Of a DNA stretch of 64,000 nucleotides, positions 8,620 through 41,497 are shown in pieces. Source of the stretch: Alphaproteobacteria bacterium. Lineage in GTDB: Bacteria; Pseudomonadota; Alphaproteobacteria; Rhodospirillales; Casp-alpha2. A program made the translations under genes and the position numbers. The stretch is from assembly GCA_014382345.1 (NCBI GenBank), contig JACNJX010000106.1, positions 62,001 to 126,000 of the forward strand. The letters are read 5' to 3'. The notes beneath the pieces were generated by a model. The model was not told where the DNA came from. It did no database searches and was given only the letters and a program-made list of their open reading frames with translations. How positions within the stretch are numbered: position 1 is the stretch's first letter; each line of letters begins with the position of its first letter.

Positions 8620-9360
8620 CTAGCCTTCCGGGGCTTCCGGTTCTTCCAAACCGCCCGGCTCGCCGGCCTTCACCCAATCGGCGTATTCGGCCTTGGTGTC
8701 TTCGTTCGGCGGATAGACGCCGGGGACGGGGCGGCCTTCCTGAATTTTCAGCTTGGCGAAGCGCTCAAAGCGCTCCTGCTCGACGCCGTCGCGGCCGACC
8801 TCGGCGGCCAGCGCCTGCGGTATGACGACGACGCCGTCACTGTCGCCCGCGATGATGTCGCCCGGAAATACCGCGACGCCGCCGCAGGCGACCGGGGTTT
8901 CCATATCGGCCGCGGCATGTCCGGCAATACTGGCCGGCGCCGCGGGGCCAGAGGCATAAAGCGGTAGGCCGACGGCCAAAGCCTCGTCACAATCGCGCAC
9001 GCCGCCGTCGGATACGACGGCTTCGACGCCCCGGATTTTCAGGCGTTCCACCAACAGGTCGCCGATCACGGCGATATCGCCCCGGCCGCGCCCGTCGATG
9101 ACCAGCACGCTGCCTTCCGGCGCCTGTTCGATGGCGAGCCTGGGCGGATAGTCGGCGCCGCCCAGTTTATCCGGCGTCGACAGGTCTTCGCGCAGCGGCA
9201 CATAGCGCAGCGTGTAGGCCGGCCCCAGAATCCGCTCAACCGGGCGGTTGAGGGGCCTGACGCCGGTCATGGAAATATTGCGGATGCCGCGTTTCAGCAG
9301 CTGCATGGTGATGGTGGCGACGCTGATGGAGGCCAGCGCGGCGCGGGTGTTTTGGTCCAT
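8620..9360 (-). CDS. RraA-family protein (4-hydroxy-4-methyl-2-oxoglutarate aldolase-like)
   Basis: A 246-residue protein of the RraA-like/DlpA superfamily. The signature is VIDGRGRGDIAVIGDLLVERLKIRG then VVSDGGVRDCDEA, where Arg and Asp form the metal/oxalate site in the aldolases, followed by GDIIAGDSDGVVVIP. Members include HMG/CHA aldolases, oxaloacetate decarboxylases and RNase E regulators; sequence alone does not tell which. An SD (GGGAGGAA) sits just upstream of the ATG at 9360, deciding that start against an in-frame one 11 codons upstream. Confidence 0.85.
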   Translation of the reverse strand: MDQNTRAALASISVATITMQLLKRGIRNISMTGVRPLNRPVERILGPAYTLRYVPLREDLSTPDKLGGADYPPRLAIEQAPEGSVLVIDGRGRGDIAVIGDLLVERLKIRGVEAVVSDGGVRDCDEALAVGLPLYASGPAAPASIAGHAAADMETPVACGGVAVFPGDIIAGDSDGVVVIPQALAAEVGRDGVEQERFERFAKLKIQEGRPVPGVYPPNEDTKAEYADWVKAGEPGGLEEPEAPEG

Positions 9361-9466
9361 GGTTCCTCCCTTGTTGCTCCCTTGAGGGGGCAAGCGGTTT
9401 TATATTTTTCCGGCGTATTTGACGTTTATCAATGACCCGGGGCCGGGAAACGACTATATCAAATCC

Positions 9467-9682: not shown

Positions 9683-10264
9683 GTGGTCAAGCTCGATAAA
9701 ATCTACACACGCGGCGGAGATGGAGGCGAAACGTCCCTGGGCGGCGGTGCCCGCGTCGCCAAGCATGACCCGAGGGTCAGCGCCTATGGCACCGTCGATG
9801 AAGCCAATGCCGTGCTCGGACTGGCCCGGCTTTCCGCCGATACCGATAGCGACGCCATGCTGGCCCGCATCCAGAACGACCTGTTCGATCTCGGCGCCGA
9901 TCTGTGCCGGCCCCAAAAGGACATGAAAGAGTCCGGGGAGGGCGAAGACGATGGCGCGTTGCGGATCAGCCCGGCCCAGATCCAGCGCCTGGAGGCCGAG
10001 ATCGACGCCATGAACGAACAACTGGAACCCCTGGCCTCCTTCGTCCTGCCCGGCGGGACCGAAACCGCGGCCTGGCTGCATCTCGGCCGCACCACCGTGC
10101 GCCGTTGCGAACGCCTGATGACGGAACTGGCCGCCGTCGAGGCCGTCAACCCGGCGGCCATCCAATACGTCAACCGGCTGTCCGACCACCTGTTCGTGCT
10201 GGCGCGAATCGCCAACGAACGGGGCAAGAAAGACGTTCTGTGGGAGCCCGGCGCCAACCGGTAA
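9683..10264 (+). CDS. PduO-type cob(I)alamin adenosyltransferase
   Basis: Transfers the adenosyl group of ATP to cob(I)alamin, making adenosylcobalamin for enzymes such as methylmalonyl-CoA mutase. 193 residues, full length. The N-terminal ATP-binding motif is IYTRGGDGGETSLGGG, followed by YGTVDEANAVLG, and the C-terminal part has RRCER and the VNRLSDHLFVLAR helix of the family. The start is GTG at 9683. No cobalamin riboswitch is visible upstream. Co-location with etfBA, a 3-hydroxyacyl-CoA dehydrogenase and, further on, mmsA fits propionyl/methylmalonyl metabolism. Confidence 0.93.
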   Translation: MVKLDKIYTRGGDGGETSLGGGARVAKHDPRVSAYGTVDEANAVLGLARLSADTDSDAMLARIQNDLFDLGADLCRPQKDMKESGEGEDDGALRISPAQIQRLEAEIDAMNEQLEPLASFVLPGGTETAAWLHLGRTTVRRCERLMTELAAVEAVNPAAIQYVNRLSDHLFVLARIANERGKKDVLWEPGANR

Positions 10265-23853: not shown

Positions 23854-25584
23854 ATGAACCCCGACACCGATACCCTGAACCCCCAGAAGGAACATGAGGC
23901 CGAACCAGCACCGGCAACCGTGGAAGAAAGAGATTCCATGGACTTCGACGTGGTCATCGTCGGCGCGGGTCCGGCCGGGTTATCGGCGGCCATCCGCCTG
24001 CGCCAATTGGCCGCCGAGCAGGATTTTGAGTTGACCGTCTGCGTCGTCGAAAAGGGCTCGGAGGTCGGCGCGCACATCCTGTCCGGCGCCGTCCTTGATC
24101 CGGTGGCGCTGAATGAACTGATTCCCGACTGGCCGGAACGGGGCGCGCCTTTGGGGCAGCCGGGGACCGATAACCGCCACTGGGCCCTGGACAGGAAGGA
24201 CCTGGTGGCCGAGTAGCAGCCCGCGCTGCCGCCGATGATGAGCAACAAAGGCTGCTACACGCTCAGCCTCGGCGCCCTCAGCCGCTGGCTGGCGGACCAG
24301 GCCGAAGGGCTGGGCGTCGAGATTTTCCCCGGCTTCGCCGCCGCCGAGGTCCTCTACAACGAAGATGGAAGCGTCAAGGGCATCGCCACCGGCGACCTAG
24401 GGCTCGATGCCGAGGGCAAACCCACCGCCAACCATGAACCGGGCGTCGAACTTCTGGCCAAATACACCTTTTTCGCCGAAGGCGTGCGGGGATCATTGAG
24501 TCAGCAACTGATGGAGCGCTTCAACCTCAGGGACGGAGTCGAGCCGCAGACCTACGGCATCGGCATCAAGGAACTGTGGGACGTGGCCCCGGAAAAACAC
24601 AAGCCCGGTCAGGTCATCCACACACAAGGCTGGCCGCTGACGGACACCGGCGGCGGTGGATTCCTCTATCACCAGGACCAAGGACAGGTCGCCATCGGCT
24701 TCATCGTCGCGCTCGATTATGAGAACCCTTATCTTTCGCCATTCGAGGAAATGCAGCGCTTCAAGACCCACCCCGCCATCCGCCCGGTACTGGAAGGCGG
24801 GAAGCGCGTCGCCTATGGCGCCCGCGCCATCAATGAAGGCGGCCTGCAGGCGATCCCGAAGCTGGTGTTTCCCGGCGGCGCCCTGATCGGATGCGCCGCT
24901 GGTTTCGTCAACGTGCCCCGCATCAAAGGCAGCCACAACGCCATGAAAAGCGGCATGCTGGCGGCGGAAGCGGCATTCCAGGCCATCAAACTAGGCGGCA
25001 CAGGCGGCGATGAGTTGACCGCCTACCCGGAAGCGTTCCGCGCGTCCTGGGCCTACAAGGAACTGTACCGCGCCCGCAACGCCCGCCCGGCGCTGGCCAA
25101 ATTCGGCGGACTTCTAGGCACGCTCTACAGCGGGCTGGATTTGTGGCTCAATTCTCTGGGCCTCGGGTTTCTGGCGCCCTGGACCCTCGGCAACCACGAG
25201 GACCATTCGGCGCTGAAAAAGGCCGCCGAAATGACAAAAATCGACTACCCCAAGCCGGACGGGGAGATTACCTTCGACCGGTTGTCGTCGGTGTACCTGT
25301 CCAACACCAACCACACGGAAAACCAGCCCTGCCATCTGACCCTGAAGGACGCCGCCATCCCGGTTGCCGTCAACCTTGCGGACTATGACGGGCCGGAAGC
25401 CCGCTTCTGTCCGGCCGGCGTTTACGAATTCGTCGAAGACGGCGATAGTGGGGGCGCTCAACGCCTGCAGATCAACGCCCAGAACTGCGTTCACTGCAAA
25501 ACCTGCGACATCAAGGACCCGACCCAAAACATTACCTGGGTCACCCCCGAAGGCGGCGGCGGCCCCAATTATCCCAACATGTAA
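23854..25584 (+). pseudogene. Electron transfer flavoprotein-ubiquinone oxidoreductase, interrupted by in-frame TAG
   Basis: ETF-QO passes electrons from ETF to ubiquinone in the membrane. The frame encodes about 576 residues but is broken at codon 121 by TAG (24214-24216). Both parts are in the same frame and are otherwise intact. Upstream: the FAD motif VVIVGAGPAGLSAAIRL and GAHILSGAVLDP. Downstream: [50 protein letters not shown] and a C-terminal 4Fe-4S binding stretch [17 protein letters not shown]. Only one base would need to change. It may be a recent pseudogene, a sequencing or assembly error, or a readthrough. A restart at ATG 24235 would lack the FAD site and is unlikely to work. Confidence 0.88.
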
Positions 25585-31332: not shown

Positions 31333-31346
31333 TTGACCTTAATCAA
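31333..31346 (+). promoter_or_regulatory. FNR/FixK-type binding site
   Basis: TTGACCTTAATCAA fits the FNR/FixK half-site pattern TTGA-N6-TCAA and differs from the E. coli FNR consensus TTGAT-N4-ATCAA at one base. It lies about 86 bp upstream of the ATG at 31432. If centred near -41.5, transcription would start around 31381. This predicts low-oxygen activation of the three redox genes that follow. Confidence 0.7.
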
Positions 31347-31431
31347 GGCCAAAAACCGATTTCAGTGGCAGAACTAGCCGGTGATCTTACATAATTATCA
31401 TTCGTATTTACCGTGAATGTTGAGGGTGGGT

Positions 31432-32505
31432 ATGTTCATGAAATCGTGTTTTTCAAAACCCCTTTTATCCTTTCTTGGCTCCCTTCTTGTCGTTGCCGGA
31501 CTTGCCTGGGCGGCCATGGCCGTTGACGTTGTTTTCTCCGGTGACGCCCTGGCCCAAACCCGTGGCGCCGTTCCCGGCAACGTGCAGGGCAGCGCCAACG
31601 ACTCCGATATGTGGCGCCGGTTGCGCCGGGGCGAAGGCTTCGTTATCAGCGATCCGCGCACCGGCACCGTGGTCGCCATCCAGTCCAGCGGCGAGGAATG
31701 GCGCGCCTTCCGCAACGGGCCGCTATCGACCTACGGCGGCTGGCTGCTGGCGGTTTCCGCCCTGGCGATCGGCGCGTTCTATGTGCTGATGGGCCGACTT
31801 AACATCGACGGCGGGCCCACCGGCCGATGGCTGCCCCGGTTCACCAATGCCGAACGGGTGATCCACTGGTACGTGGCCGCGACCTTTATCATGCTCGCGG
31901 TATCGGGCCTGACCATTTTATTCGGCAAACAGGTGCTGATGCCGCTGATTGGGCAAAAGGCGTTCTCCGTTGTCGCCAGCGCCTTTCTGCAAGGTCATAA
32001 CCTGTTCGGACCGTTGTTCATTGTCGGCATCGTCGCCATGTTTATTATCTATCTCAAAGACAACTTCCTGAAGGCCGCCGACATCAAATGGCTGATGATG
32101 GGTGGGCTTTTCTCCAAGTCTCACCCGCCGTCCTGGAAATTTAACTTCGGCGAAAAAGCCTGGTTCTGGCTTGCCGTGATTACCGGGGCGATTCTCTCGG
32201 TCAGCGGTATTATTCTTGATTTTCCCAGTCTTTTGGGCGAACGCAGCCAATTGCAATTGGCCTTGCTGTTCCATGCCGGTGCCGCGGTGATCGTGATTGC
32301 CGCCGCCATCGCGCATATCTATCTCGGCACCATCGGCGTCGAAGGTGCGCTGGAAGGCATGACGGCGGGCCGCGTCGATGAAAACTGGGCCAAGCAACAT
32401 CACGACCTGTGGGCCGAAGAGGTGATGGCCGAACAGGCCACTACCGAAGATGGCCCTGCACACCCCCCTGCCAACGCAGGCCCCCAACCCGCACCCGGTG
32501 AATGA
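31432..32505 (+). CDS. Formate dehydrogenase gamma subunit-like cytochrome b
   Basis: A 357-residue membrane protein resembling the FdoI/FdnI cytochrome b556 subunit. An N-terminal signal-like helix (ending near DALAQ) is followed by a periplasmic segment, then about five helices. Heme-ligand histidines sit in ERVIHWYVA, LQGHNLFGP, LFHAGAAV and IAHIYLG, so both hemes can be bound. No catalytic (FdhA) or iron-sulfur (FdhB) subunit is adjacent. Instead it leads an operon with a NarI-like and an HdrD-like gene, 16 bp and 4 bp (overlap) apart. The start is ATG 31432 after GAGGGTGGG; 31417 and 31438 are alternatives. Confidence 0.83.
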   Translation: MFMKSCFSKPLLSFLGSLLVVAGLAWAAMAVDVVFSGDALAQTRGAVPGNVQGSANDSDMWRRLRRGEGFVISDPRTGTVVAIQSSGEEWRAFRNGPLSTYGGWLLAVSALAIGAFYVLMGRLNIDGGPTGRWLPRFTNAERVIHWYVAATFIMLAVSGLTILFGKQVLMPLIGQKAFSVVASAFLQGHNLFGPLFIVGIVAMFIIYLKDNFLKAADIKWLMMGGLFSKSHPPSWKFNFGEKAWFWLAVITGAILSVSGIILDFPSLLGERSQLQLALLFHAGAAVIVIAAAIAHIYLGTIGVEGALEGMTAGRVDENWAKQHHDLWAEEVMAEQATTEDGPAHPPANAGPQPAPGE

Positions 32506-32521
32506 AAGGGAGGCATGAACC

Positions 32522-33166
32522 ATGACGTTTCTTGAACTCACGGAAGGTCCCCTTTGGTACGCGGCGGCCACCATCTTTGTCGTTGGCGTCGTCTGGCAAA
32601 TCGTCGGGATTGTCTTGCTCGGCCGCAAACCCGACCGCAGCGTTCCGCGCGGGTCCGCCCTGGCCGGCGCCGTAAAAGCCAACGTTTTGCACCTTTGGCC
32701 GCACGGCGGGTTTTTCAACAAAACCGGTTTTCATCTGGTGGCCGGCTACATATTCCATATCGGCCTGTTCGTCCTGGTGCTGTTTGCCGCCCCGCACATT
32801 GTTTTCATTCAAGACCACATCACCGGTTTCGGCTGGGGGGCGTTGCCGCGCTGGGGTTTCGTGTTGGCCGCGGAGGCTGCCTTTTGCGGGTTGATCCTGT
32901 TGTGGGCCAGACGCATCGGCGACCCGGTCATCCGCCTGCTGTCCACCCAGGACGACCTTGCCGGTCTTTGGTTGACCTTCATCGTCATGTTGACGGGGTG
33001 TCTGGCGCTTGGCGAAAGCATCGAGTTTCTGCGGGCCCTGCATATGCTCACCGTCGATATCTGGCTGATCTATTTCCCCTTCAGCCGCCTCATGCACGGG
33101 TTCACTTTTGTCTTTAGCCGCGGCTACATGGGCGCCACGTTTGGGCGCCGGGGAGTGACGCCATGA
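32522..33166 (+). CDS. NarI/DsrM-like cytochrome b subunit
   Basis: A 214-residue integral membrane protein with about five helices, like the respiratory nitrate reductase gamma or DsrM/HmeC subunits. Candidate heme histidines are in LHLWPHGGFF, GFHLVAGYIFHIG and LRALHMLTVDIWLIYFPFSRLMHG. It should exchange electrons between quinone and a cytoplasmic subunit; here the adjacent partner is an HdrD-like protein. The SD (GGGAGG) sits 8 bases upstream of the ATG, and the stop overlaps the next start (ATGA). Confidence 0.84.
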   Translation: MTFLELTEGPLWYAAATIFVVGVVWQIVGIVLLGRKPDRSVPRGSALAGAVKANVLHLWPHGGFFNKTGFHLVAGYIFHIGLFVLVLFAAPHIVFIQDHITGFGWGALPRWGFVLAAEAAFCGLILLWARRIGDPVIRLLSTQDDLAGLWLTFIVMLTGCLALGESIEFLRALHMLTVDIWLIYFPFSRLMHGFTFVFSRGYMGATFGRRGVTP

Positions 33167-34446
33167 CCGACATCGCCAAAGCCACAGACGTCTTTATGAA
33201 CAAGATCGACGCCCAGGTCGCCGCCCATCTCGACGCCTGCGTCCGTTGCGGGCAATGTTCCGAGGCGTGCCATTTCTATCAGGTGACGGGAGATCCCAAA
33301 TACACCCCCGTTTATAAACTGAAACCCCTGGAAACGGTCTATCAACGATACAAAGCCCCGTTGTCCGGGATCAAGCGGATGCTGGGCTTAGCCCCACCGG
33401 AGCTGACGGCAAGCGATCTCGAGGACTGGGCCGAATTGGTCTACGACGCCTGCACCTTGTGCGGCCTTTGCACCGTCGTCTGCCCCATGGGCATCGACAT
33501 CGCCTCTATGGTGCGAAAAGTGCGCGAAGGCTTTTCCGCTGCCGGACTGGTGCCCGAAGGCCTGACCGGCGCCGCCCAACGGGCCATCGAGATCGGCAGC
33601 CCGCTCGGCATCAAGCCCCAGACGCTCGAAAAAATTATTGCCGAACAAGCGGAAGAGGTCGGCATCCCCATCGAACTCAACAAAGTGGGCGTCGACTACC
33701 TTGTCATTCTGTCCGCGATGGAGGTTCTCAACTTCTATGAAGTCATCGGCGCGCTGGCGCGTCTGTTCAAGAAAGCCGGCGTGACCTGGACCATTTCCAC
33801 CGACGCCTACGAAGCCACCAACGTCGGCATCCAGATGGGCAACCTGGAAATTGCCGGAACCCTGGTCGGGCGGATCGTCGATGCGGCGGAAAAGCTAAAG
33901 GTCAAATACGTCATCAGCCCGGAATGCGGCCACGCCTATTCAGCCCTGAAATGGGAAGGCCCCAACCTGTTGGGCCGGGATTACGATTTCGAGGTCATCC
34001 ATATTCTTGAACTGATGGACAAGCTGCGCCGCGAGGGCCGCATCACCTTCAAGGGCAAGGACGACCGGAAACTGACCTACCACGACCCCTGCCAGATCGT
34101 CCGGCGCGGCGGCATCGTCCGCGAGCCCCGCGACCTGCTGGGGCAGGTGGCGTCCAACTTCGTCGAAATGAAAGACTGCGGCGTCTACAACATTTGTTGC
34201 GGCGGCGGCGGCGGTGTCAGCGCCAACCCGCGCGCCGAAGACCTGCGGCTCAAAGCCTTCGCCGTTAAAAAGGCCCAGGTCGATGACCTTGGCGGGGTCG
34301 ATGCCCTGGTAACGTCGTGCGCCAATTGCCGCAACGTGCTGGAGGAAGGCATCGAACATTACGGCATGGACCTTCCGGTTATCGGACTGAGCGAACTGCT
34401 GGCGGACTACCTGGATGATGAGGGGGATGCAGCCAGCGCGACCTGA
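33163..34446 (+). CDS. HdrD/DsrK-like (Fe-S)-binding protein
   Basis: A 427-residue cytoplasmic iron-sulfur protein of the heterodisulfide reductase D / DsrK / GlpC group. Two 4Fe-4S motifs are CVRCGQCSEAC (C26-C36) and CTLCGLCTVVCP (C97-C107). The C-terminal half has VISPECGHAY, YHDPCQIVRRGG, NICCGGGGGVSA and SCANC, the CCG cysteine-rich domain. Such subunits reduce or form disulfides using quinone-linked cytochrome b partners. With the two preceding membrane genes it forms a plausible membrane-bound complex. The physiological substrate is not evident. Confidence 0.87.
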   Translation: MTDIAKATDVFMNKIDAQVAAHLDACVRCGQCSEACHFYQVTGDPKYTPVYKLKPLETVYQRYKAPLSGIKRMLGLAPPELTASDLEDWAELVYDACTLCGLCTVVCPMGIDIASMVRKVREGFSAAGLVPEGLTGAAQRAIEIGSPLGIKPQTLEKIIAEQAEEVGIPIELNKVGVDYLVILSAMEVLNFYEVIGALARLFKKAGVTWTISTDAYEATNVGIQMGNLEIAGTLVGRIVDAAEKLKVKYVISPECGHAYSALKWEGPNLLGRDYDFEVIHILELMDKLRREGRITFKGKDDRKLTYHDPCQIVRRGGIVREPRDLLGQVASNFVEMKDCGVYNICCGGGGGVSANPRAEDLRLKAFAVKKAQVDDLGGVDALVTSCANCRNVLEEGIEHYGMDLPVIGLSELLADYLDDEGDAASAT

Positions 34447-39612: not shown

Positions 39613-40581
39613 ATGACCGACATGCCCGATACCCTCTTCAAACCGTCCCCCGGCATTGATCCGCAAAAATTCCGGGATCCCGATTTTACCGCCAAGGGCG
39701 ATCAGCGCGCCGTCGTCGCGCTGACCCATCTGCGCACGCTGTGGTTCAATACCGGATCGCTCTGCAACATCACGTGCCGCAACTGCTATATGGATTCCAG
39801 CCCCACCAATAACCGGCTGGCGTACCTGACTCTGGCCGACGTCGAAGAATATTTAAGCGAAATCGAAACCGAGGGCTTAAGAGTCGAGGAAATCGCCTTT
39901 ACCGGCGGCGAGCCGTTCATGAACCGCGATTTGTGCGACATGATCGAAAGCGCGCTCGGGAAAGGATACCGGGTTCTGGTGCTGACCAACGCCATGAAGC
40001 CGCTGTTGAACAAACGCGACCGATTGTTGGATATCTTCCGGCGCTACGCGGAAGCCTTGACGCTTCGGGTCTCGGTCGATCATTTCACGCCCCATCGCCA
40101 TGAGGCCGTGCGCGGCCAAGATACCTGGGCGCCGATGATCGAAGGCTTGAAATGGCTGGCCGGAAACGGTTTCAAGCTTACCGTCGCGGGGCGCACCTGC
40201 TGGAATGAAAGCCAAGACCAATCGCGGCGCGGGTATGCGGATTTTTTCAAGGCCGAGGGCATTTCCATTGATGCCGAAGACCCGGCGGCGCTGGTGCTGT
40301 TTCCGGAAATGGACGCGGCCGCCGATGTTCCCGAAATCACCACCCACTGCTGGGACATTCTGGGTGTCGCGCCGGAAAGCATGATGTGCGCCACGTCGCG
40401 CATGATCGTCAAACGCCGGGACGGGAGCGGTCCCGTGGTCGTTCCGTGCACGCTGCTGCCCTATGATCCGGCCTTCGAGCTGGGCCGGGGCCTGGCGCAA
40501 GCATCAAAGACGGTCAGCCTCAACCATCCCCATTGCGCCAAGTTCTGCGTTTTGGGCGGCGCGTCGTGTTCCCCGGATTGA
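39613..40581 (+). CDS. Radical SAM protein with C-terminal cysteine cluster
   Basis: A 322-residue radical SAM enzyme. The 4Fe-4S motif is CNITCRNC (C51, C55, C58). IAFTGGEPFMNRDL is the GGEP SAM-binding strand. The C-terminus, FELG...HPHCAKFCVLGGASC, preceded by VPCTLLPYD, holds four or more cysteines and may bind an auxiliary Fe-S cluster (SPASM/twitch-like). The substrate is unknown. It is followed 22 bp later by a metallophosphoesterase gene, suggesting a shared pathway. Confidence 0.88.
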   Translation: MTDMPDTLFKPSPGIDPQKFRDPDFTAKGDQRAVVALTHLRTLWFNTGSLCNITCRNCYMDSSPTNNRLAYLTLADVEEYLSEIETEGLRVEEIAFTGGEPFMNRDLCDMIESALGKGYRVLVLTNAMKPLLNKRDRLLDIFRRYAEALTLRVSVDHFTPHRHEAVRGQDTWAPMIEGLKWLAGNGFKLTVAGRTCWNESQDQSRRGYADFFKAEGISIDAEDPAALVLFPEMDAAADVPEITTHCWDILGVAPESMMCATSRMIVKRRDGSGPVVVPCTLLPYDPAFELGRGLAQASKTVSLNHPHCAKFCVLGGASCSPD

Positions 40582-40603
40582 TGCCGGAAGGACGCAACCC
40601 ACA

Positions 40604-41497
40604 ATGAGCGAAAACCCGGTTCTGGATTTAGGACACCTCGACGGCCCGGTGCTCTGCTTCGGCGGCCCCTATTCCAACGCCCAGGCGACGGATGCCCTGC
40701 TGGCGGAGGCCGAACGGCTGGGGATTCCGGCAACCCGAATGATCTGCACCGGCGACGTGGTCGCCTATGGCGGTGACTCTGTCGCTTGCGTCGAGCGGAT
40801 ACGCGCCGCCGGCGTCCCCGTGGTCATGGGTAATTGCGAGGAATCCCTTGGTCTCGCTGCGAATGACTGCAATTGCGGGTTCGATGAGGGCAGTGATTGC
40901 GCCGCCTGGTCGGAGGCCTGGTTCGCCAACGCCGCCCTGTCCCTGGACGAAGACGCCAAGGCCTGGATGCGGGCGCTGCCCCGGCTGATCCGCTTCGAGT
41001 TGGCCGGACGCCGTTTCGCCGTCCTGCACGGCGGCCTCGACAATATCTCCGAGTACGTGTTCGCCTCGAGCCCGGCCGACGTCAAGACCGCTATCCTGGA
41101 CCGCCTGGACGTGGACGCGGTTATCGGCGGACACGAAGGTCTGCCGTTCACGGACATCCTTGGCGACCGGCTCTGGCACAATGCGGGCGCCATCGGTATG
41201 CCCGCCAACGACGGAACGCCAAGGGTCTGGTTTTCCGTCCTCACGCCCGATGACAATACGGGCAGAATCGAAATCACCCTGCATGCGCTGAACTACGATC
41301 ACGCCGGCGCGGCGCGGGCGATCCGCGCGGTGACCCCGGGGCTGCCTTACGCCGAAACCCTTTCCACCGGTCTTTGGCCCAACATGTCGGTGCTGCCGAA
41401 AACTGAGCAGGCCCAACAAGGCCGCCCCCTGACGCCTGAGACCATATTCTGGTCCCGGCCGGAAATGCCGTACGCCCCCGCCGCCGCAGCGGAATAG
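40604..41497 (+). CDS. Metallophosphoesterase with internal cysteine cluster
   Basis: A 297-residue calcineurin-like phosphoesterase. Conserved metal-site motifs are GDVVAYGGDS, VMGNCEE (GN[HC]E variant), LHGGLDN and IGGHEG. An insertion after GNCEE contains NDCNCGF and GSDCAAW, giving four cysteines in about 25 residues. This Cys-rich segment is not typical of the general family. It is transcribed with the upstream radical SAM gene. The ATG at 40604 is preceded by GGAAGGA 12-18 bases upstream; an open frame extends further. Substrate unknown. Confidence 0.82.
   Translation: MSENPVLDLGHLDGPVLCFGGPYSNAQATDALLAEAERLGIPATRMICTGDVVAYGGDSVACVERIRAAGVPVVMGNCEESLGLAANDCNCGFDEGSDCAAWSEAWFANAALSLDEDAKAWMRALPRLIRFELAGRRFAVLHGGLDNISEYVFASSPADVKTAILDRLDVDAVIGGHEGLPFTDILGDRLWHNAGAIGMPANDGTPRVWFSVLTPDDNTGRIEITLHALNYDHAGAARAIRAVTPGLPYAETLSTGLWPNMSVLPKTEQAQQGRPLTPETIFWSRPEMPYAPAAAAE

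Follow-up and report, generated by a model that had tools for sequence, protein, structure and literature searches.

A 64,000-nucleotide stretch of alphaproteobacterial DNA (hereafter the window; G000:C93:62001-126000, from an assembly of 3.07 Mb in 121 contigs that is 96.7% complete) carries on its plus strand three consecutive genes for two cytochromes b and an iron-sulfur protein, which we read as fdhC, isp1 and isp2 and refer to as the trio. Their products have 362, 214 and 427 residues, and the genes are separated by a gap of 16 bp and an overlap of 4 bp, respectively (Table 1; the prefixes G, C and L mark genomes, contigs and loci), which bears out the tight packing reported by a first-pass annotation made from the letters alone. 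That annotation had also called the first product an FdhI-like cytochrome b and the third an HdrD/DsrK-like iron-sulfur protein, and both assignments stand: protein 1 exceeds the NCBIfam cut-off for formate dehydrogenase gamma (TIGR01583, 163 bits vs. 115.85) and matches FdnI of PDB 1kqf (1kqf_C, 4.5e-22), and the best NCBIfam match of protein 3 is DsrK (235 bits, below the 400-bit cut-off), followed by sub-cut-off matches to TmcB (214 of 735 bits) and HmcF (3e-56, 191 of 750 bits). Protein 2 has no Pfam match, and its best NCBIfam matches, TmcC (111 of 240 bits) and HmcE (3e-23, 83 of 275 bits), are likewise below cut-off; a TmcC/HmcE/Isp1-like label fits it better than the "NarI/DsrM-like" one first given, which retains only weak NarI fold matches in its favor. 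Because these scores fall below the cut-offs, we rejected a Tmc or DsrMK label for proteins 2 and 3.

Table 1. Positions of the trio and its features within the window
Feature	Position	Strand	Basis or remark
FNR/FixK-like box TTGACCTTAATCAA	31333..31346	+	exact TTGAY-N4-RTCAA
fdhC/fdhI-like cytochrome b gene, FDH3 type, Isp-linked subtype	31417..32505	+	alternative in-frame ATG at 31432
FdhC N-terminal extension: membrane anchor, periplasmic part, second membrane segment (~residues 6-140)	31432..31836	+	hydropathy
FdhC haem b ligand codons H150, H194, H286, H300	31864..32316	+	invariant in 9 aligned FdhC
Site of missing ~21-residue loop before H286 of FdhC	32224..32227	+	comparison with free-standing FdhC
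isp1-like gene, TmcC/HmcE-type cytochrome b	32522..33166	+	NCBIfam TmcC 4e-32
Four candidate haem b ligand codons of Isp1: H79, H92, H174, H192	32756..33097	+	49/49 rows
isp2-like gene, HdrD/DsrK/TmcB-type iron-sulfur protein	33163..34446	+	NCBIfam DsrK 1e-69, TmcB 2e-63
Two [4Fe-4S] motifs CxxCxxCxxxC of Isp2 (C26-C36, C97-C107)	33238..33483	+	eight Cys in 49/49 rows
Complete CCG domain of Isp2: C310, C345-C346, C386-C389	34090..34329	+	PF02754 5e-12

Proteins 2 and 3 are homologous to Isp1 and Isp2, the electron-transfer pair of Isp-type [NiFe]-hydrogenases, whose hydS-isp1-isp2-hydL arrangement is described in passages of PMC2621215, PMC7735108, PMC10892978 and PMC11018855 and whose Isp proteins are thought, according to a passage of PMC3102683, to serve electron transfer for hydrogenase activity in vivo rather than maturation. 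Within a set of 61 genomes (60 relatives and the window's own), protein 2 was found at E≤1e-3 in 10, and its more distant copies (33-38% identity, with 55-56% for protein 3 at the same loci) stood in this hydrogenase arrangement. The identity of protein 3 with Isp2 encoded next to hydrogenase genes is 52-56% over the order and 37-55% in a draw from the phylum. Across the order, protein 2 at E≤1e-12 occurs in 29 of 317 genomes, which form two separate score groups: 13 genomes reach at least 296 bits, and 16 others, together with further copies of protein 2 in G057 and G558, score 85-125 bits. The low-scoring copies have hydS nearby, with two exceptions, G547 and G550, whose neighborhoods contain no hydrogenase or formate dehydrogenase (FDH) genes. 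The phylum draw (397 genomes; protein 2 at E≤1e-10) gave 18 matches, namely the window genome, two FDH-linked loci (G972 and G998), 14 with hydS close by, and G903, which has neither hydS nor fdhC in its 1.5-kb flank; among the 14, G1008 (L085) is a hydrogenase locus in which the large-subunit gene directly follows isp1 with no Isp2 match between, and G807 has a partial Isp2 match with hydS close. A plasmid search returned one match, hydrogenase-associated and from Methylovirgula, and a class-wide Isp2 search (E≤1e-100, with at most the best four candidates per genome scored) gave at least 3 of 386 genomes, the window's own included, and contributed G061 and G407 to the comparisons below. No hydS or hydL homologue was found in the window, and the module there is, on these comparisons, a relative of the Isp module and not an Isp hydrogenase. 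The "undescribed complex" of the first-pass annotation is not supported in that form, as half of it, Isp1-Isp2, is already known from hydrogenases. At G550 (L074, 1622-8079), isp1-isp2 lie beside genes that by eye, without a family scan, are CBS-domain-like and nqrB-F-like, and the Nqr-like genes could be a third partner of the Isp module.

The high-scoring copies have a different neighborhood. Together, the 13 high-scoring genomes of the order and G061, G407, G972 and G998 of the class give 17 loci (FDH-type hereafter), in all of which isp1 and isp2 are adjacent, and in 16 of which fdhC-isp1-isp2 stand together; the trio, whose conservation and recurrent neighbors had been left to be checked, is thus a conserved unit. 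The recurrent neighbor is fdh3AB, found directly upstream, in the order fdh3A-fdh3B-fdhC-isp1-isp2, at 11 of the 17 loci (9 of 13 in the order and 2 of the 4 further class loci: G042, G048, G057, G480, G481, G482, G483, G558, G560, G972 and G998), so an "orphan FdhI" was rejected. Some of the 17 loci are incomplete or divided: G048, cut by a contig end, retains only the last 251 residues of fdh3A, the G037 contig starts ~220 bases before fdhC, and in G041 fdhA-fdhB-fdhC and isp1-isp2 are found on different contigs. The earlier statement that the first gene has no FdhA/FdhB partner is true within the window, where tblastn at E≤1e-3 found no fdh3A or fdh3B homologue, but it does not hold beyond it, since fdhAB lie upstream of the trio in those 11 loci and elsewhere in the same genome. 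A genome-wide search, made for FdhB and not for FdhA, located one copy in the window genome, on contig C68 together with fdhA and a free FdhC (one without isp genes), and this FdhB is 84-91% identical to trio-linked FdhB in nine loci of the order. All seven carriers tested have an FdhB 84-100% identical to that single copy, and in the 61-genome set FdhB (E≤1e-60) occurs in 7/7 carriers vs. 24/54 others (Fisher p 0.011, relatedness uncorrected). Formate is the likely substrate, because FdhB exceeds the FDH3_beta cut-off (340 and 339 bits vs. 240) and FdhC passes its own, although FdhA does not.

Other genes around these loci were also considered. The window genome encodes a third FdhC, of the free type, at a contig end (G000:C2:36521-37573; L018); the idea of a second fdhAB hidden beside it was set aside, as the contig ends ~130 bases before the gene. 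Between fdh3B and fdh3C, 16 of 21 gaps examined contain, with or without isp genes, a small lipoprotein-like open reading frame of 94-154 residues (e.g., L017:4773-5225), mostly with a C-x3-EQGR motif that is variant in L111; the window trio has no gene of this kind beside it. At G407 (L070, 9384-14282), the trio is directly downstream of phnX, phnW and pbfA (NCBIfam, above cut-off), genes of 2-aminoethylphosphonate degradation. Two genes flanking the window trio were rejected as partners: the MMSDH gene upstream, which among the loci searched recurs only beside isp1-isp2 of G547 and in opposite orientation, and a gene of 201 codons downstream, whose product has no Pfam or NCBIfam match and no homologue among the genes predicted in the first 12 neighborhood loci.

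FdhC of the trio belongs to a distinct subtype. Its four ligand histidines align with histidines of FdnI and, by the FdnGHI structure, presumably bind haem. The loop directly before the histidine aligned with FdnI H155 is kept in 22 of 23 free FdhC (a 24th locus, L127, was left out, no FdhC being found there), whereas among the FdhC of the 17 FDH-type loci it is absent in 15 and shortened in 2 (G972 and G998). The 17 include G041, whose FdhC is of the trio subtype although its isp1-isp2 are split off. By the known topology of FdnI, we take the loop to be periplasmic and beside the periplasmic haem. The window FdhC is 44-75% identical to the FdhC of the other 16 loci of its type and 38% identical to the free FdhC that the same genome encodes on C68. 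Its periplasmic N-terminal part, noted in the first reading, is real, but it is common to the three free FdhC aligned and was therefore rejected as a novelty.

Conservation in Isp1 and Isp2 was assessed over 49 rows (order, 31; class, 4; phylum draw, 13; plasmid, 1), and L085 (no Isp2 match) and L091 (partial) were left out of the trees. Hydropathy and the positive-inside rule give five helices for Isp1, with H92 and H174 on the periplasmic side and H79 and H192 on the cytoplasmic side; the two pairs likely form a two-haem path through the membrane with Isp2 at its cytoplasmic end. The FDH-type Isp1 has a signature of its own, H57, H71 and C160, present in 17/17 FDH-type rows vs. 1, 0 and 0 of the 32 others. 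Its predicted structure is of moderate confidence (predicted local distance difference test, pLDDT, 75.5), and its best Foldseek matches, to NarI of NarGHI, are weak (E 0.002-0.01, none below 0.001; template modelling score ~0.5; root-mean-square deviation 8-10). In Isp2, the C-terminal CCG ligands occur in 48 of 49 rows, the 49th (G006) ending at a contig end, and a first CCG copy is reduced to C255, which all 49 rows keep. The CCG domain is that of Hdr and DsrK, and thiol/disulfide chemistry is established for it in Hdr; its conservation in Isp2 points to such chemistry. The best structure model of Isp2 has a pLDDT of 86.6 (five models range from 61 to 87), and the closest PDB fold is EtfD of Mycobacterium smegmatis (1e-15, 19% identity), followed by a LutA-LutB model and HdrB. 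The conservation of these putative relay ligands over the 49-row alignment supports the membrane link to a cytoplasmic thiol-type iron-sulfur protein suggested at the outset.

In the trees, all 17 FDH-type rows of Isp1 fall in one branch (support 100/100, length 1.03), and 12 FDH-linked rows of Isp2 group with G041 (89/86) next to hydrogenase Isp2. Between the window genome and G006, nonsynonymous and synonymous rates (dN/dS) are 0.165/1.083 for fdhC, 0.113/0.886 for isp1 and 0.055/1.202 for isp2 (the last over 271 codons), i.e., ratios of ~0.15, 0.13 and 0.05 with dS near saturation (~1); the free fdhC at C68 gives 0.22/0.977. The low dN/dS argues that the trio is kept by selection despite having no adjoining fdhAB.

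A candidate for the cytoplasmic thiol carrier is DsrC, which a passage of PMC6470260 postulates as the partner of HdrB/HdrD-like CCG proteins. Canonical DsrC (PF04358, E≤1e-38) occurs in 103 of the 317 genomes of the order, including 12 of 13 FDH-type carriers vs. 78 of 288 genomes without either type (p 3e-6, relatedness uncorrected) and 13 of 16 genomes with the low-scoring type only (both types together, p 5e-10, again uncorrected). In the window's genus, 6 of 10 genomes have DsrC and 2 have the trio. The DsrC of the window genome carries both C-terminal cysteines and lies, on another contig, among genes with the order and sizes of dsrABEFHCMKL (by eye; only DsrC was family-tested).

The near-consensus FNR/FixK box that had been reported ahead of the trio is indeed there, an exact TTGAY-N4-RTCAA that deviates in one half-site (TTGAC) from the TTGAT-N4-ATCAA type. 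Two exact matches occur in the window (31333 and 9419) against 0.15 expected, and 1 of 100 shuffles has two; the looser TTGA-N6-TCAA yields the same two, with 0.68 expected and two in 18 of 100 shuffles, and is not significant. We regard the box as above chance because of its position and its recurrence in relatives. Exact boxes with differing inner letters precede the start by 83-104 bases in the window, in G006 (L019:2945, before the trio) and in G041 (L010:1024, before isp1-isp2), i.e., at three of the six modules without linked fdhAB; as the window genome and G006 are congeners, the independent cases number two. The other three unlinked modules (L021, with only ~220 bases upstream, L069 and L070) have no exact box near the start. 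One full operon (L064) has a one-mismatch match at -328, and L020 is cut by a contig end. A terminator scan at the trio found none. As for a regulator, the PF00325 profile had no match in the genome, although 9 of 14 controls matched, and PF13545 had five, three of which read as Crp/FNR-like proteins and one of which (L108) resembles a GntR/aminotransferase-type protein. The Crp/FNR-like L104 combines a CxxC...C pattern in its N-terminal part with an E..SR recognition helix, both of which we take to be FNR-like motifs. At L105 (G000:C57), a locus with a Crp/FNR-type helix-turn-helix match, there is an iron-sulfur subunit with a Tat-like signal that is PhsB/TtrB-like by eye. The second FNR-like box of the window, TTGACGTTTATCAA (9419-9432), has an RraA-like gene (8620-9393, minus strand) on one side and an open reading frame at 9683 (plus strand) on the other.

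On balance, we think it probable that the trio supplies the membrane part of a variant formate dehydrogenase of the FDH3 type, an alternative anchor for low oxygen that would deliver electrons both to quinone and to a thiol carrier of the cytoplasm. FdhC would be the cytochrome b anchor at which the periplasmic FdhA-FdhB docks, and Isp1, with its five predicted membrane helices and two b haems, would form with Isp2 a second transmembrane relay, as in Isp-type [NiFe]-hydrogenases. On the cytoplasmic side, Isp2 would carry two [4Fe-4S] clusters and one CCG-type cluster. Electrons from formate could thus run from FdhB through FdhC to quinone, or from FdhC through Isp1 and Isp2 to a thiol/disulfide carrier in the cytoplasm; the part of PMC11018855 that sets out a model for Isp hydrogenases has quinone reached via Isp1 and a cytoplasmic acceptor via Isp2. 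The best carrier candidate would be DsrC of the reverse-Dsr (rDsr) sulfur pathway, and transfer from formate to DsrC is the direction that we tentatively favor, at less than even odds. In the window species, FdhAB would be shared, with the trio as an alternative anchor induced by an FNR-type regulator when oxygen is low. We consider possible but doubtful the most specific form of this idea, an oxygen-switched exchange of anchors in which the FNR-induced FdhC-Isp1-Isp2 takes FdhAB from the quinone-only FdhC and delivers formate electrons to DsrC, linking formate oxidation to the trisulfide/disulfide pool of rDsr.

Several observations weigh against the proposal of a variant formate dehydrogenase. 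No fdhAB lie beside the trio in the window genome, G006, G061 and G407 (in the last two, FdhB was not searched genome-wide). Two FdhA proteins that were scanned have a formate dehydrogenase alpha model as best match, at a sub-cut-off 458 and 481 of 666 bits, and reach 320 and 333 of 814 bits with a second such model. The loop is imperfect as a marker, as the free FdhC of G052 lacks it and the Isp-linked G972 and G998 keep part of it, and the dS values are near saturation. In the Isp2 tree, G061 (L069), G972 (L094), G998 (L095) and G407 (L070) fall elsewhere, G407 on a long branch; with Isp1 in one clade and Isp2 in several, Isp1 therefore follows the enzyme more strictly than Isp2. The association with DsrC is confounded by relatedness, G048 is without DsrC (its bin is 82% complete), and a dsrK-sized gene is already present in the rDsr-like cluster of the window genome. 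Finally, an exact box is lacking within 350 bases of fdhA in all 10 full operons examined, so the recurrence in relatives that was expected of the box at first holds for half of the unlinked modules and not for full operons, and the only sigma-70 match is on the minus strand, with none on the plus strand. As for the four stray Isp2 proteins themselves, they represent other lineages than Isp2 of the remaining FDH-linked loci although their Isp1 belongs to the same clade, which suggests swapping or fast change of Isp2.

The four loci without linked fdhAB would also suit a trio that works without FdhAB altogether, its two cytochromes b and Isp2 forming a quinol/thiol oxidoreductase that would connect DsrC with the quinone pool in the manner of TmcBC or DsrMK lacking periplasmic subunits. 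Pairs of isp1-isp2 with neither hydrogenase nor formate dehydrogenase neighbors do exist (L073 and L074), DsrK and TmcB are the best family matches, and most carriers hold DsrC. We nevertheless find this unlikely: FdhC retains the N-terminal part and the four haem ligands of FdhAB-linked FdhC and evolves under constraint, and the genome has an FdhB closely similar to trio-linked FdhB of the order. Because formate is a low-potential donor, Isp2 might alternatively deliver electrons to NAD+ or ferredoxin instead of a disulfide carrier, perhaps splitting them between quinone and the low-potential acceptor. Such acceptors are proposed for Isp hydrogenases from AlphaFold models in part of PMC11018855. 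The three trio proteins, however, have no flavin- or NAD-binding Pfam match at E≤0.001, the conserved CCG domain is of the thiol/disulfide type, and the genome already encodes, next to a NuoEF-like gene, a formate dehydrogenase alpha (745 bits vs. the cut-off of 666) that looks NAD-linked; we judge NAD+ or ferredoxin quite improbable as the acceptor.

The fold of Isp2 raises the further question of whether Isp1-Isp2 might be an electron transfer flavoprotein:quinone oxidoreductase (ETF-QO) resembling EtfD/EMO. EtfD is its best Foldseek match (1e-15), the window contains an etf gene and an acyl-CoA dehydrogenase gene, and its ETF-QO gene (23854-25584) has an in-frame TAG at codon 121 (24214-24216), which could reflect either a genuine interruption of the gene or a fault in the assembly. 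There is also a precedent in Desulfobacterium autotrophicum, whose hdrF genes, in which membrane and HdrD-like parts are joined, cluster with etfBA or glpAB according to a passage of PMC2702500. At 19% identity, however, the EtfD match is distant; ETF-QO is present in 18 of 19 genomes searched and 12 of 13 carriers, with the frame open over 550-704 residues in 17 genomes besides the window's; and the recurrent neighbors of the trio are fdh3AB. We regard this explanation as very improbable and retain that of a formate dehydrogenase anchor. Elsewhere in the window (39613-41497), a radical SAM protein gene is directly followed by a calcineurin-like phosphoesterase gene.

Both halves of the proposed system are known, and it is their union, with FDH3 as the new partner of Isp1-Isp2, that we did not find described. 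In the open-access literature searched (subscription papers and preprints were outside its scope), we found no description of an Isp- or Tmc-linked formate dehydrogenase; in the relevant part of PMC10920352, Tmc and formate dehydrogenases are not joined, and in that of PMC2621215, isp genes accompany hydrogenase and formate dehydrogenase clusters are separate. If the oxygen-switched exchange of anchors is true, the Isp relay would be a transferable module to which unrelated periplasmic oxidoreductases can be connected. Its occurrence on a formate dehydrogenase would make it a more general device for connecting periplasmic catalysis to a cytoplasmic acceptor. The trio type would further allow the acceptor of Isp2 to be sought in another system, one that does not depend on hydrogen, and offers a way to test whether formate oxidation, low oxygen and sulfur metabolism based on DsrC are linked. 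Since HdrF with glpAB or etfBA is on record, a portable HdrD-type relay as such is not a new concept.

Among known systems, Tmc (TmcABCD) and Hmc of sulfate reducers resemble the trio in combining a TmcC/HmcE-like cytochrome b with a TmcB/HmcF-like iron-sulfur protein, but the trio falls below the cut-offs of these families, and where it has FdhC, they have multihaem cytochromes c. DsrMK of DsrMKJOP shares with it DsrK, the best NCBIfam match of protein 3, yet the score is only 235 of 400 bits, and genes of dsrM and dsrK size are found in the rDsr-like cluster on another contig. EtfD/EMO provides the closest solved fold of protein 3, but EtfD and HdrF are mostly fused chains with ETF or GlpAB as partner, whereas the trio has two genes for these parts and FDH3 as partner. 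The fdh3ABC system is similar in that its FdhB exceeds the FDH3_beta cut-off and its FdhC has the N-terminal extension; the trio differs from it in an FdhC without the loop before H286, in isp1-isp2 downstream and, in the window, in anchor genes that lie apart from fdh3AB. The Isp-type [NiFe]-hydrogenases (groups 1e/1g, hynS-isp1-isp2-hynL, of Thiocapsa, Acidithiobacillus and Acidianus) have the same four invariant histidines, the same cysteines and the same order isp1-isp2, and their copies share with the trio type the bacterial order and, in two cases (G057 and G558), even the genome. Unlike in these hydrogenases, the trio's partner is an FDH3-type formate dehydrogenase with an extra cytochrome b, FdhC, and its Isp1 forms a separate long-branch clade with its own signature residues.

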